Positions 47,228 through 63,908 of a stretch of 64,000 nucleotides of DNA are shown in pieces. The position numbers were made by a program, and so were the translations under genes. The DNA comes from Xestospongia bergquistia (Eukaryota > Porifera > Demospongiae > Haplosclerida > Petrosiidae): positions 253,001 to 317,000 of the forward strand of contig OZ014425.1 in assembly GCA_963965975.1 (NCBI GenBank), written 5' to 3'. A model generated the notes under the pieces. That model did no database searches. It saw only the letters and a list, made by a program, of their open reading frames with translations, and was not told where the DNA came from. The number at the start of each line of letters is the position of its first letter. Position 1 is the stretch's first letter.

Positions 47228-56564
<9,337 letters not shown>

Positions 56565-56830
56565 GTCACGTACAAAAAGAGACTCAACTCGCGAGAGAAG
56601 AGAGAGAAGAAATCGTTTTTAGAGATCTTCTCGTAGTTCTTGTCAATCTTTATTGCAGATTAGAGTCTTTTGAAGACGAATAGAGAGAAATGCAAAGACA
56701 CACTCGTGGAAGATGAACGGAGTGATTTCATTAGTTGCAATAGACACACGATATTAAAACTGTATTAAATACCATGTACCGTATATCTTCTATTTAATAA
56801 TGAAAATATTTACGTGTCATCACCACAATA
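56565..56830. promoter_or_regulatory. Shared promoter, LRP5/6 / RIC8
   Basis: 266 bp between divergent starts. It has a purine-rich stretch (AGAGAAGAGAGAGAAGAAAT, 56596-56615) and a TACGTGTCATCACCA segment near the RIC8 ATG. No full CACGTG or TATA box. Confidence 0.45.
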
Positions 56831-59593
56831 ATGGATATGTTATGGAGTAATCTATTATCTTCACAAACTGAGAAAGAAGTCTTTAAAAATCTATCTGATT
56901 TTATAAATGAGGTTATTTGTTTATTAGTTAAATTACAGTAATTATTTTCGCAATTAATTTTTATTTAGAATCAATCAAATTTCCAAATTGAAGGATCATT
57001 GGAAGTTAAAAATGTACGTAAAAAGTATATTATAATATTATGTTCAATATTTCTTTATTTTAAATAGAATATATGCACATTTTTATTTGAACACATCGCA
57101 CCCACAACTCCAGATGATACAAAATGGTCTCTTAAAACACAAACTATAGCATTAACTACATTACGTCTCATGGCTAGAGGCAAAACAGATGGTGTTACAA
57201 ATGCCCTATGTAGTGATGATGGCTTAAACATTTTTTGTGCATTGGCTGATGTGGGTGTGGAAAACAGGCAGAGCAAATTCAAAGATGAAATCTCAGACGA
57301 TGACATCATTAAAGGTTCTATTTATAGATATGTTATGAATCCATAGTCAAATAGCATACATTCATTGTAATGCTTCCTCTCTCTTCTTATCCTAACCACA
57401 GTGATAGTTGAGGCTACAAAGTGTTTGTGCAATATTTTCTTAAACAACAAACATTTAATCTCAAGAAGTTCAGAGCTAGGTATAATAAGAGGTCTATCAG
57501 AGAGATTGACCCTTCATTATGAGAACTTATTACCCATTGAAGTAGTATACTTTGACCTTCGATTGCTCTTCCTGATCACGGCATGTGACTCAAATGAGAG
57601 GTGAATTTCAATCATAACAATTAATTAAGAGGTGGAGGAGTAAACCCCCTTATTAATTGATTAGTTTACTTGTTCATGTACAATGGTATGATGTTTTTAC
57701 AAAAAGTAGAATTGTTTTTACTGTGTGAGTAAACAATAGGTATTCATTAATTAATTAATCTAATTATAAGTATTTGTACATAGATCCATCCATTTAGTAT
57801 GCGCCTGTCCATTCAATTATTGCATTCATCCGTTAATCTGTTTATTGATCCATTCTATCTAGAACTATATTTCGTGAGAAATGTAATGGTCTCTTAATAA
57901 TGACGAATGTAATAGACAAAACGTTGTTTACCGTATCTCCTGAAGCCACACCCACTTTGTTGAATACCACTCCATCTATCGATTGTGCTAGTGAATTTCC
58001 CCTGCGAGCAAATGTAGTCACATTGCCACACCCACTAACAGAGATGGATATCAATGTACTGTGTGAAACATTAAAGACGATATATAATCAAACAGTTCAT
58101 TGGAATGATCATGACCAGATACCAGATGTATGTTAGTTAAATTTAACACTTAACATAACATTGTGGTTAACATATTGTGGTAGCCCATAGCCACATACTA
58201 AATTGTTTTGTTTTTGCAGCTGGAGATTTGACTTCATTATGTATATAAGCAATTATCTTGTTTTCTTAGTACACTCTACAAATAATGACAAGACTTGGTT
58301 ACCTCATTCGATTACTTCTTGTGTCTGTTCCAGCACAACTCAATCCACAAACACTTTTATTAATAAGGTAACGTAAGAGATCATGAATATTGTTATAGCT
58401 CTGACCACTCCTACTTTTAAAGTCATGTAGTAGAAGTATTAGTTAACTTTCCCAAATCTTCGGTTGTCTCTCTTCTTCTCCCTGCTGACATTGAAGTTAA
58501 TCCATATCTTTGTAACTTGTATCCTCAACTTTATCCTTGTAAAGCCGAAAAGACGCAAATTGTTGAAGGGGGTGTGGCTAGTGGAGTGGGTGTGGTTTAT
58601 ACATTGACTATTGATAGAATATTTGAAGGTCACAATATGGCAGCAATTTTAGCACTTGTTAACATTTTACATATCAGACTGGTAAACTGACATTGATCAT
58701 ATGACAGTCATGTGACATTCAGCCTTAGACTAGAGAGAAAAGTGGTCATGCAGTACCTACTTTAATGACAGCATTACGGCAAATTTGTTGTGGTCACAGA
58801 CTTGTACGTCGATTCCTGAGAGCTGAAGTAAGTTTAATAATGATATATAAATTAAGAAAAATCCCATTTTTAAAGATATTGCCTCCATTGGGGGCTATTA
58901 CCAAAAGACCAGATGAAGGAGAAAGTCTTAAGAGCAAGTCAGTTTTATATCTTATGTATTTTGATCACATGACTGTCACATGACTATAGAATAGTTCGTC
59001 TAATGACAGCTGCTAGCACATATGGTGCTGAAGAAGTAACAAGTGAATTCTTATTTGTACTTTGCAAAGAAAATAGTAGGTTAATGTAGATGAATCTGTA
59101 ACTCCACCCACTTAATAGCTTCGCGTTTCATTAAACATGTTGGATATGGTCGAGCTGCTGGTCTATTGATGGCCCATGGATTATTAGGAGGTGGTCCCTC
59201 TCCAGGAGAGTCTCAATATTCAAGTGATGAAGGCACATCAGATACTGAAGAATATGAACAATCCAAACCCAAGTACATAATGTTTATTGTTGCTACACAT
59301 ATAACATTATCTCTAGAGTTGATCCTATCACTGGAGGGCCAGTAGTGAAAGAAGACTCTACTCCATTAGACAATATGACAGATGATGAGAAAGAAGAAGA
59401 GGCAAGAAAATTAGCTGATCTCATAAGAAGATTGAATGAGTGAGGAGACAAAGTTGTATTAACTTAATGACATATTTTATGCAGGAAAGGGATAATTCAA
59501 ATGATGCCATTAGGTAGTGACAACCAACCAATGGAATTTCCTCCTGATGATGACAATGATAAAGGAAATGACCATGATGTAAATGTTGACTGA
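56831..59593 (+). CDS. RIC8: RIC8 (synembryn), G-alpha chaperone and exchange factor
   Basis: Folds nascent heterotrimeric G-alpha subunits and acts as a non-receptor exchange factor. The start at 56831 gives [20 protein letters not shown]. The body is an armadillo/HEAT-like helical repeat. The C-terminal part is most diagnostic: [20 protein letters not shown], then [30 protein letters not shown], the acidic [20 protein letters not shown] (conserved CK2-type region), DPITGGPV and [20 protein letters not shown]. About 530 residues, normal length. An ordinary-looking exon includes [11 protein letters not shown], encoded by two GGGTGTGG octamers. It converges on the next gene, with 62 bp between stops. 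Vertebrates have RIC8A and RIC8B; this is the single ancestral form. Confidence 0.93.
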
Positions 59594-59655: not shown

Positions 59656-61602
59656 CTAAGTTGTTTTTTTCTTAATATGCACTCGATAAACACGGCAAGA
59701 TATGACAATTGAGATGACAAACCACGCCCCCAACCCAAATGCTACATACAGTGAAATTTCACGAGGCCAAAAAGTATACTTGTAGCTCAAGAAGTACATG
59801 TTGCCATGGGAACCACAAATGGTTTCTTCTAGTTCAACCAAAATACATATGTCATGAGATGATGACCAATGAGGAAAAAATGGCGATCGTAACTTTAACT
59901 GCACTGAGACATCTTGACAATAGAGAGTCATGTTTGTATGTAATTCATCAGAAATTGTTTGTGATAAATTATAAAATAGCTGAGAATATTGCCATTGTTG
60001 TAGGTCAGTACAATTATAACCATAGTCTACACATCGAAGGAAGTAATATGAAGAATGTCCAATATCAAATACCAAAGGGGGATGGTTAGGTGACGGAGAA
60101 AGCATACCACATTGTATGCCGTGGTCACCATGATTATAACTATCACAGCTGCTTAATTCATCAAATTTAGTTCTCACAGCATGATTGGCCTTGTGTATAG
60201 AATCAAATAACCATATAGGATAAGGTATGTCACTGATTTGTTTCCTGATAGTAACACGAGAGCCTTTCAGTAGATAAACAAAGTCTCTAGGAGGGTTTTC
60301 AAGAGTTACGTTATCAGTCTTCAATTTATCACAGGTGGTAGCAAGTACTGTTGCCTGACAGCCGTCATTTTGACCATAAAGTTGCAACTCAATTGTTGGA
60401 GGTGCAAAAAATGGTAAAGGGATAGTTATGATATCTCCTGAGAGAATGATTTCAATTCCATCAACATTATTAGGCAACAATATTAATCCACCAATCATTA
60501 CTACAATACCTAATATCAATGGTAACCAAGTTAAGATCAAAATGATAACCATATAGACTTTTGGCTTGCAGAATGGTCCTGTAAAGAAGACAGAATATTA
60601 ACAAAATGTAAACAAGAGATCCATTTACTAGTTTCATTATTATCATCATTATCACGAACACGTTTTTGTCGCCTTCTTTTATCAACTCTCTTCTTTATCA
60701 AGTGAGTTTTTTCTACAAACAATAGAGTATTATTGATACAACAGCTGTATTTTATCGAATTAATGAAGTGTTTAGTACAGTGCTTATCATATCAACAAAC
60801 CTGATAAGCCATCTTCATTATTCATTGCAGTTTCTATAGCTCCATTGAATTTTTGAACCATTGCACTTTTAGAAAGACGACAATCTCTTTGCCAATCGTG
60901 ATACATCTTCTGAGCCTTTAATCCACCTCCTCCTTCAGATCTCATGGCTTCATCAATTTGTCTGTCAGACAGACTAAGTTGTAAGCCAAACACCCGTGCT
61001 TGTCCATCTGTCATTCTCTCAACTTGACTCCAGACATACGGCTGACTAAAAACCTCTAAATTAAAACAATAATTACTGACAAGAGTACTTTCAAGATTTT
61101 ACCTCCACTAAATTCACTAATAGGTCTTCTTCCACCTGTAAGATATTTAGCAACACGACCAAGTCTAATAGATGATAGAGCACTGTCCAGTTTGTTATAT
61201 GCTGTTCTCTTGTCCATTCTCTCATTCTGTTTTATCCATTTGCGACATACATTCATTGCTTGTACAGCAGGATCATTAGGATCAGCAATGGATATTTGTG
61301 TTACCTCGTGTTCTGGTACTTCAAGAAAAATCCCCAATTTTTTCACTTGAGCATTATTGATACCACTTTTACTGAACAGATTCAGTAGAAAGCGTGGCGT
61401 TAATTCTTCCAAACTGTCTTCATCCTCAGTCACATAGGCAGGTTCAACATCTTCAACTTCTGGGTAAGCTGTGGAACTAACACCAGAATCAACTATATAT
61501 AATATAAACAAATGAAAAGAACATTCCTTATCTTGGATAAGGACAATTCTTACCTCCTCTTCTGCTGGTAGGAAGAACACTGGAATCAGGAAAGGTAGCC
61601 AT
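59656..61602 (-). CDS. Double-death-domain, two-TM membrane protein, paralogue 2
   Basis: The start at 61602 gives MATFPDSSVLPTSRRGG. Two death-fold domains come first. The first (about 61110-61440) reads LTPRFLLNLFSKSGINNAQV, KKLGIFLEVPEHEVTQI, AMNVCRKWIKQNERMDKRTA. The second (about 60787-61020) reads VWSQVERMTDGQARVFGLQL and KMYHDWQRDCRLSKSAMVQK. A basic exon follows (KKTHLIKKRVDKRRRQKRVR), then TM1 (VIILILTWLPLILGIVVMIG), an ectodomain of about 215 residues with about ten cysteines and several N-glycosylation sites (NVT, NCT, NLS, NMT), TM2 (VAFGLGAWFVISIVISC) and a short basic tail. The basic stretch before TM1 puts the death domains in the cytosol. The ectodomain matches no family I know. 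Related end to end to the next gene. Confidence 0.8.
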
Positions 61603-61671
61603 TATATATAACGCTATTGCTAACTTACCAGTAGTAATGCGTGAGGTTGTTATGATAAAATATAAATTAAA
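61603..61671. other. 69-bp gap between the two death-domain genes
   Basis: Must hold the 3' end of the upstream gene and the 5' end of the downstream one. On the minus strand it contains a good splice donor (CTGGTAAGT, about 61625-61633) with no acceptor before the next ATG. Confidence 0.6.
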
Positions 61672-63908
61672 TTAAACTTTATTAAATTTACAAATACAAA
61701 ATGTAATAATTATTGTGATCATAAACCACACTCCTATACCAAAAACCACATACACTACAATCTCACGCTGCAAAGATACATACTTAAAAGTCAAGAAAAA
61801 CATATTTCCATTGGAGCCACAAGTGGTTGCATCTAACTTGGCAAGGACACACACGTTACTGGTAGATGACGGCGAGGGAAAATATTGACGTCGTAATTTA
61901 AGATGAGATGATGTATCTTGTGCTTTTATCACAGTTCTAGATACGGCCATGTCAATGGTAAGAGAAAAGTTATAAGTAACTTCATGAAAACGCCAATGTG
62001 TAACTTGAGTGCAGTTAAAGGAAGGTCCTTCTACACATCGAAGGAAATAATAAGAGGAACTCGTTATATTGAATACCACAGGATTGGAATCACCAGAATT
62101 TACAATGTGACATTGGGCACCTTTCATAGGTCTCCTACAATTATAGCCATGGTCAAATTCAAACTGGTTCTCGACAGCATGTTTTGCTAATTCCAATTTG
62201 TCAAATAACCAGATACCATAAGGACGTGATCTCTCAGGGATATCCTGTGAGTCTATAATTACACTGGAACCTTGTACCAAGTACTCATAGTTTAATGCAG
62301 GATCATTAACTATTATACTGTTAGTTACAATATCATGACAGTTCACTGAAATAACTGTTCCCTCACAGTAATCCTCTGGACCCCAAAGAAGGAGTTCTAA
62401 AAGTGGAGGAGAACGAGAAGAAAGTGGGAGTGCAATGGTGTCCCCTTGACGAATGACTGTGGTTTCTTGTGTGTATTGAAATGCAAACACTGTTAGTATT
62501 ATTGCAGCAATTATAAGCAGAACTAGTATAAACCATGATATACATAGACAACTGAGCTTGACTTTCAGGGGTTTTCCTAGGGACACCAGTGCAATGAATA
62601 TCATGAATTAATAATATATAGTACTACTTACCAATAAATTTGACAATCACATTAGATGCACCTGCATTATTAGTAACAGTAGTAGCATGGGTAGCACCAT
62701 ATCTGTTTGGTTGTTCTAACAAAAGTGTACTTTCATCATCTATTGTGATAGATAGACTTCAAATCTAGACAATAGTATCAAAACAATGAAACTTACTATT
62801 AGTTGGAGGACCACCCACAGTTGGTTCAGTTGGTTCAATAGTTGGTATATGCTCAATCACAGTGGTCATAACATGTGGTGGTGGTATAGGGTCTTCTCTA
62901 ACCTGTAAACTGTCTTCTGGAAGTCCTACTTCAGTCATTGCTTCATTAAGTTTGTCTAACATAACACTGTCTGTTAATTCACTCTCCTTCTTCCATTCTA
63001 CAAACATGCTGAGAGCTTTGATATCACCAGACTCATCAGCTTCTTTTTGCAAAATGTTATCAATAACATTGGTTGACAGACCTAGAGCTAGTCCAAATCT
63101 ACGTGCTTGATGATCATCAAAATCTTTGACTCTCAAATACACAGCACGCTCTGAAAGCCCTAACAAACAAAGAAACAGACCAGTACATATGTTTATCTTA
63201 TTCAAAGATCAACACCATCATTACCTATATATAGATAGCATCAACATTCATCCTCATAATGCATTACTAATAAAGCAATATCATGTTTATGTTTTTGTAT
63301 CAAATCATTTTGTTACATGTAACCTGTATAGTGCTAGCCATAAATTAATTTTATAGTGAGTAATTAAAGTATATATACTTTATATATGTTATTAGTCACT
63401 ACAAATTTATATATAAGTACCTATTCTAGTTGGGAGTCGTGTCCTAGATATTAAGTTTCTTGCAGCACGACCACGTTTCATGTCTTTAAGTACTTGTATA
63501 AGCTCAGTATATGCTTCACGTTCATTCCAGTCTCTCTTGCTCTTCTTCCATTTGTGGAAAACTTCCAAAGCTTGCATAGCAGGATTATTTTGTGGATGAT
63601 GATCCTGAATTTCAGCAATTTGAGCTCTTGTAAGTTGTAGCAATATTCCCAAAAGTTTGACATCACTTAAAGTAAAATCTTTAAATAAATTTAAAAGATA
63701 AGGATCATCCAATGATTGTGAAGACTCTGCGTTATCCTCATCTACAGAGCCTGCATTTGATCTGGCGTAACCCGAATCTCTTCCTTTTACTGCAGAAATA
63801 TCAATCTGTTATTAAAGTAATTCATTGAGATTTGTAGCACTAACCTTTTTGTCTGTCTCTATCTGCTTCTGGCTGTGATTCTAGATCGCTGCTGTAACCA
63901 GTGGCCAT
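61672..63908 (-). CDS. Double-death-domain, two-TM membrane protein, paralogue 1
   Basis: The start at 63908 gives MATGYSSDLESQPEADRDRQ. First death-fold domain about 63430-63705 (LLNLFKDFTLSDVKLLGILL, then ALEVFHKWKKSKRDWNEREA). Second about 62930-63165 (DDHQARRFGLALGLSTNVID, then ALSMFVEWKKESELTDSVML). A Pro/Thr-rich linker and a short exon (NDESTLLLEQPNRYGATHAT) lead to TM1 (WFILVLLIIAAIILTVFAF), an ectodomain, and TM2 (VVFGIGVWFMITIIITFCIC) ending CKFNKV. Ectodomain blocks shared with paralogue 2: GIWLFD/PIWLFD, SSYYFLRCV, NCT, and TCGS-x-GNM-FL-KY. The AATAAA poly(A) signal (61678-61683) overlaps the last sense codons. Family and ligand unknown. Confidence 0.8.

Follow-up and report, generated by a model that had tools for sequence, protein, structure and literature searches.

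The window considered here is a stretch of 64,000 nucleotides from the sponge Xestospongia bergquistia (assembly GCA_963965975.1, contig OZ014425.1, positions 253,001 to 317,000), in which two adjoining genes, referred to as A and B, occupy positions 59656-63908 of the minus strand (Table 1). Each is modeled as five exons, the open reading frames being joined by predicted splicing, and the order of the encoded domains is the same in both: a first death domain (DD1), a second one (DD2), a linker, a first transmembrane helix (TM1), an ectodomain, a second transmembrane helix (TM2) and a short tail. To preserve the frame, the acceptor of gene B exon 4 was placed between CAATAG and ATGATG. An alignment of the two proteins covers almost their full length (280 bits, 32% identity). 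An earlier note, made from the letters of this DNA alone, had described two membrane proteins with an N-terminal pair of death folds, two TMs and a cysteine-rich ectodomain. Gene models, Pfam and profile comparisons agree with that description, and both models finish exactly at the gene ends that it gave. Its estimate of about 215 residues for the ectodomain was too short, as 245 (A) and 244 (B) residues separate the TM helices. Two of the three sequence blocks that it held to be common, WLFD and SSYYFLRCV, are indeed found in both proteins; the third is CGS-x-GNM, its leading T being present only in B. The shared cysteines and glycosylation sites are also recovered: seven ectodomain cysteines align (out of nine in A and eight in B), and both proteins have the sequons NCT and N-[LF]-S.

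Table 1. Predicted features of genes A and B (positions are those of the window).
Feature	Positions	Strand	Basis or remark
Gene A	59656..61602	-	566 aa; spliced open frame, GT-AG phase-1 introns
Gene A exons	61602-61554, 61492-61103, 61055-60801, 60712-60629, 60578-59656	-	predicted splicing
Gene A DD1, exon 2	61158..61403	-	family HMM; Pfam Death 16.5 bits, below cut-off
Gene A DD2, exon 3	60814..61050	-	family HMM; Pfam Death unmatched
Gene A exon 5	59656..60578	-	hydropathy; family alignment
Gene A TM1; ectodomain; TM2	60549-60493; 60492-59758; 59757-59701	-	hydropathy; then basic tail
Gene B	61672..63908	-	602 aa; spliced open frame, GT-AG phase-1 introns
Gene B exons	63908-63845, 63789-63421, 63159-62797, 62739-62632, 62576-61672	-	predicted splicing
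Gene B DD1, exon 2	63470..63712	-	Pfam Death 33.7 bits, cut-off 22.6
Gene B DD2, exon 3	62921..63157	-	AlphaFold model pLDDT 82; Foldseek matches to death domains
Gene B exon 5	61672..62576	-	hydropathy; family alignment
Gene B TM1; ectodomain; TM2	62550-62494; 62493-61762; 61761-61705	-	hydropathy; then short tail

By its sequence, DD1 is a death domain. In the Pfam search that the earlier note had proposed, DD1 of gene B passes the cut-off of the Death family (PF00531), while DD1 of gene A and both DD2 stay under it; across the family described below, 4 of 13 DD1 match at E≤0.1, with 4.1e-8 as the best value. A profile built from all 13 DD1 reaches the Fas death domain at 3.6e-5, FADD at 0.0081 and ankyrin-3 at 0.019, Fas being the best among true death domains. 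Designed repeat proteins at the top of the same search (dTor, 5e-12 and 9.4e-10) were rejected as repeat artefacts, with no stretch passing alone. The DD2 profile reaches Fas at only 0.11, and it matches the DD1 profile at 97% (E 1.3e-10). For DD2 of gene B, a model built with both window sequences as input shows a helix bundle (pLDDT 82.3) of five helices and a short, low-confidence sixth. When this model was compared with the PDB using Foldseek, the first 29 of 47 matches were all death domains, led by TNFR1 and Fas/FADD, with a probability of 1.00. Because of the DD1-DD2 profile match, the helix-bundle model and these Foldseek matches, both domains are taken as death domains, DD2 being, as judged from sequence and model, a divergent one. 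Thus, the fold search, run for DD2 as the weaker domain, leaves it in the death-fold superfamily, as the earlier note had supposed. An A_deamin match to DD2 of gene A (0.036, under the cut-off) was set aside.

The ectodomains of the family have 231-250 residues, with 8-11 cysteines and 2-7 sequons in the 14 exons counted. The 25 residues ahead of TM1 carry a charge of +4 in A and in B, none of the 14 exons has a net positive charge in the first 15 residues of the ectodomain, and the C-terminal tail (4-31 residues) is positive in 13 of them. The charges around TM1, the tail charge, the sequons and the cysteines favor a topology in which both ends are cytosolic and the loop is outside or luminal; disulfides would then be expected in the ectodomain. 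In Pfam, exon 5 of A and of B gave no match, and searches with A, B and 13 ectodomain exons matched neither a TNFR family nor a channel family. Phage records, viral contigs and contigs of prokaryote genomes were also searched for relatives of the ectodomain and yielded none. A PCNA_N match in 3 of 13 members (best 0.033) is stronger than that of APD1-4_M discussed below. It was set aside, as a matter of judgement, because a nuclear clamp does not suit a membrane loop and because the layout gives it no support; a profile match of the ectodomain to a PCNA chain of the PDB (0.0049) had no stretch passing alone. A tetraspanin match (0.019), restricted to the TM1 region of the relative L056, was likewise put aside.

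When the genome (146 Mb, 21 contigs) was searched with the ectodomain exon of gene A, 14 places were found, and a search with the member on contig C9 found a fifteenth. Three of them are on C15 (two being A and B in the window), one is on C9 and eleven are in about 60 kb of C2. A scan of the regions around these places with the death-domain profile revealed a DD1-DD2 pair upstream, in the same order, on the same strand and within 4 kb, at 13 of the 15, namely the two window genes, the C9 gene and ten genes of the C2 cluster. This co-occurrence argues against the death-domain exons and the ectodomain belonging to separate genes. Moreover, the recurrence of the whole order agrees with the proposal of the earlier note that the architecture is older than the A/B duplication. 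The places without the pair are a C2 copy with stops in frame and a divergent ectodomain relative at C15:496287-497267 (L056:1390-2370, plus strand), which lacks detectable DD exons in the 4.4 kb upstream and which, used as query, finds only 3 other family members. Conversely, the death domains of gene B lead back to the family: at E≤0.01, all five non-self matches of DD1 and the single one of DD2 are family members, none lying outside it, in a genome that holds at least 150 Death matches.

Three further observations concern frames of this genome. Inside the C2 cluster, a 693-residue frame on the minus strand (L025:5492-7570; C2:7135492-7137570) shows a P-loop-like motif by eye and has no Pfam match at E≤0.01. 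Also inside the cluster, a 1296-residue frame on the minus strand (C2:7159840-7163727) appears by eye to be retroelement-like and may have aided duplications. Elsewhere, the best Death match of the genome (L001:1420-2598, minus strand, on C10) is preceded by a weak match to COR-B (0.0012, below the cut-off), which suggests that death domains may also join Roc-COR proteins.

The TM-ectodomain-TM part and the APD1-4 module are probably remotely related, so that the statement of the earlier note that the ectodomain matches no known family is not supported. In Pfam, APD1-4_M (PF16041) weakly matches 3 of 13 members at E≤1 (best 0.083, 13.6 bits for a cut-off of 25). In the C2 member L015 the match spans residues 168-284, just ahead of TM2, and positions 2-106 of the 108 in the profile; the other two matches are probably from near-identical copies of L015 and hence not independent. 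No tested member of the family exceeds the curated cut-off of PF16040 or PF16041. The same genome has clear APD1-4-type genes, with PF16041 over its cut-off at three places on C12, and PF16040 at two on C12 and one on C1; by eye, their frames also have the TM-ectodomain-TM layout. Four such genes were aligned as a profile for comparison. Against it, the 13 ectodomain exons give a probability of 83.7 over 113 columns, and a ten-member set including the relative at C15:496 kb gives 94.1, with a score of 60.2 and 254 co-linear columns from TM1 to TM2. Controls that keep the TM columns and disturb the ectodomain columns only remained below this score, with 26.5 after reversal and maxima of 31.0 over 100 column shuffles and of 39.6, 46.6 and 52.9 over block shuffles of 10, 20 and 40 columns, respectively (60 each). 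Single sequences compared with the APD1-4 profile gave 0.4 (A), 1.6 (C15:496 kb) and 76 (C9).

The APD1-4-type genes themselves (G000 C12:17.6-24.6 kb, L035, L036 and L037; C1:2356351, L039) are two-pass genes in single open frames, and Pfam finds neither a RING nor a death domain in L036. Ankyrin-repeat frames stand beside two of these genes (one recognized by Pfam, one by eye), and an 82% identical piece is found at C13:6491074.

The ten C2 genes unite in the trees of the ectodomain (95/98), of DD1 (95/96) and of DD2 (97/96), and near pairs within C2 recur in all three. In a joint tree, 12 DD2 stand apart from 13 DD1 at 100/100. Judging from this separation, the death domains were probably already paired when the lineages of the window genes and of the C2 genes parted. 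The ectodomain is constrained and not driven to diversify, as indicated by dN/dS values of 0.20-0.53 for its exon in all ten pairs (the pairs overlap). Identity was followed along the length of seven C2 pairs; patches appeared in two of them, and these two were tested by permutation. In 7180 vs 7177, identity is 97.0% over a stretch of 880 columns that covers the ectodomain exon and 68.5% elsewhere; in 7121 vs 7131, a stretch of 349 columns inside the same exon is 97.1% identical and the remainder 66.4%. Such patches were reached in none of 5000 permutations for either pair, conservation of coding sequence relative to introns being ignored in this test. In agreement with the patch, dS in 7180/7177 is 0.055 for the ectodomain, as compared with 0.63 and 0.53 for the DD exons. 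On this comparison of sequences, the patches are gene-conversion-like. Other copies, such as 7157/7168, are 99-100% identical, introns included; they may stem from a recent duplication of a whole block or be duplicates made by the assembly.

Taken together, these data suggest, with a probability that we put at roughly 0.6, that A and B are two of a family of at least 13 genes for two-pass receptors, in which an N-terminal pair of death domains is joined to an APD1-4-like module. It is known that clustering of death domains in Fas/FADD and TNFR1 nucleates an adaptor complex. By analogy with these systems, binding or clustering of the ectodomain would bring the tandem death domains together, and the assembled domains would recruit death-domain adaptors, thereby triggering cell death or NF-kB-type signaling. 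With two copies of the domain, avidity would be higher and assembly would start at a lower threshold. The proteins may act at the cell surface, bind a ligand there and have an immune role, or one in self-recognition as the earlier note also proposed.

Several observations weigh against this reading. At E≤1, Pfam Death is matched by DD2 in only 2 of the 13 genes, and the better of these matches (20 bits, 7.4e-4) lies below the cut-off of 22.6; the best Foldseek E-value for DD2 of gene B is 0.1, none being below 0.001. In one of the 13 genes (C2:7152), the DD1 frame is interrupted. For the topology, the last 15 residues of the ectodomain ahead of TM2 carry +1 to +4 in 13 of 14 exons, which weakens the positive-inside argument for TM2. 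The APD1-4 comparison depends on the TM segments: without them, the ten-member set retains at best 24 columns (score 22.4, probability 2.3; at most 18.2 in 100 shuffles) and the 13-member set scores 18.9, within its shuffles (at most 20.3), and with just one TM removed the probability falls to 32 or 75. The Foldseek search of the ectodomain that the earlier note had suggested was run, but the model is unusable (pLDDT 45), so that its first match, azurin (E 0.058), is uninformative. In the joint tree, DD1 and DD2 of C9 form a group of their own (98/98, on long branches), so that a separate doubling, or a replacement of its domains, may have occurred in C9; moreover, the separate DD1 and DD2 trees, also with long branches, fail to recover A and B as a pair. 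For the DD exons, 20 comparisons gave dN/dS values of 0.15-0.78 in 15 cases; the other five are undefined, three of them having amino-acid changes but zero synonymous ones. Finally, splicing is predicted from sequence, and the donor of gene A exon 3, GTTTGT, is weak.

This weak donor would also suit an account in which two kinds of genes adjoin, cytosolic double-death-domain adaptors on the one hand and two-pass proteins starting at a methionine in or near TM1 on the other, their fusion being a prediction artefact. In gene A, a methionine of exon 5 within TM1 could indeed start a signal anchor, and at C15:496287-497267 the membrane exon occurs with no DD exons detectable in the 4.4 kb upstream. 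Such an account is nevertheless unlikely, given that the death-domain pair lies directly upstream at 13 of 15 places, that DD2 is 191-731 bases away from the ectodomain frame in 13 of 13 genes, and that the three exon types share their main tree groups. A pyrimidine-rich phase-1 acceptor is, moreover, present just ahead of TM1 in 11 of 13 genes and absent only in the near-identical pair 7174/7152, although AGs in other phases also occur near TM1 in several of the 13.

Even with the fusion accepted, the proteins could act otherwise than as triggers. As decoys or brakes, they would hold death-domain adaptors at a membrane and dampen other death-domain signaling; the many Death matches of the genome mean that partners exist, and DD2 has diverged from the Pfam profile. 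We find this improbable, since apart from the one interrupted DD1 no truncation or loss of a death domain is seen in the family, and since a mere anchor would not call for the constraint seen on the ectodomain. The same proteins might also be sensors of an inner membrane (endoplasmic reticulum, lysosome or phagosome), with a luminal loop, reporting damage or cargo via the death domains. The predicted two-pass topology also fits a lumen, and a cleaved signal peptide is not expected with a cytosolic N-terminus; we regard this location as rather unlikely. A ligand-gated two-TM channel carrying death domains was considered for its topology, a two-pass layout with a cysteine-rich loop recalling P2X and ENaC, and was dropped as highly improbable in view of the negative Pfam results for channel families.

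Compared with the TNFR superfamily (TNFR1, Fas, DR3), the twin-death-domain proteins likewise combine a cysteine-rich ectodomain with cytosolic death domains, the DD1 profile favoring Fas and the DD2 model resembling TNFR1 and Fas/FADD. They differ in having two death domains, both N-terminal, two TMs according to the predicted splicing, and no TNFR repeat in Pfam, so that the earlier note was right in separating them from TNFR-type death receptors. In sponges, both the TNFR cysteine-rich domain and the death domain exist, but not in one protein, according to PMC4979521. With APD1-4 (ABERRANT POLLEN DEVELOPMENT; PF16040/PF16041), the family shares the TM-ectodomain-TM layout and a co-linear profile match. 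Plant APDs are two-pass in topology. They carry a C-terminal RING and are described as RING E3 ligases in PMC6118397, whereas A and B have no RING match in Pfam and the family stays below the Pfam cut-off. A parallel within sponges is the expansion in Amphimedon, for which section 10 of Kaur et al. (2021, PMC8195603) describes large families, specific to the lineage, that combine Death-like and TRADD-N domains: one to three Death-like domains make up an N-terminal unit, and the C-terminal part behind it varies. Common to both are the N-terminal Death-like unit joined to many C-terminal parts and the occurrence as sponge families, but A and B have no TRADD-N-type Pfam match, and that part of the article names no two-pass ectodomain for Amphimedon. 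The membrane form that it mentions, from the oyster Crassostrea virginica, has an N-terminal cysteine-rich ectodomain and one TM (PMC8195603). Sponge NLRs also have an N-terminal Death domain and, in some cases, TM helices (PMC12909245), but A and B match no NACHT or LRR family in Pfam. A literature search by title or abstract start, with subscription journals mostly outside its reach, returned no report of the twin-death-domain two-pass architecture.

As sponges hold TNFR cysteine-rich and death domains in separate proteins, according to PMC4979521, the question is raised of how early animals coupled outside signals to death domains. The present family offers a concrete alternative wiring, in which the death domains come as a pair, lie opposite to their usual side of the membrane span and are attached to a module possibly common with plants; the C2 cluster provides natural variants for asking what the ectodomain recognizes. 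It is tempting, though a good deal less probable, to see here a novel animal receptor class in which an old two-pass sensor module of the APD1-4 type, joined to a ubiquitin ligase in plants, was joined in this lineage to tandem death domains, multiplied into a cluster, and had its ectodomain exon remodeled by gene conversion, yielding germline-diversified, death-triggering receptors for self/non-self.

Within the window, a Ric8/synembryn gene (about 56800-59592, plus strand) is convergent with gene A and ends about 65 bases from its stop; Pfam Ric8 is over its cut-off in 2 of the 5 frames tested (8.1e-12 and 3.4e-8) and weak in two more. Also in the window, a frame at 54925-55119 on the minus strand has a weak match to the LDL-receptor class B repeat (0.0018, under the cut-off).

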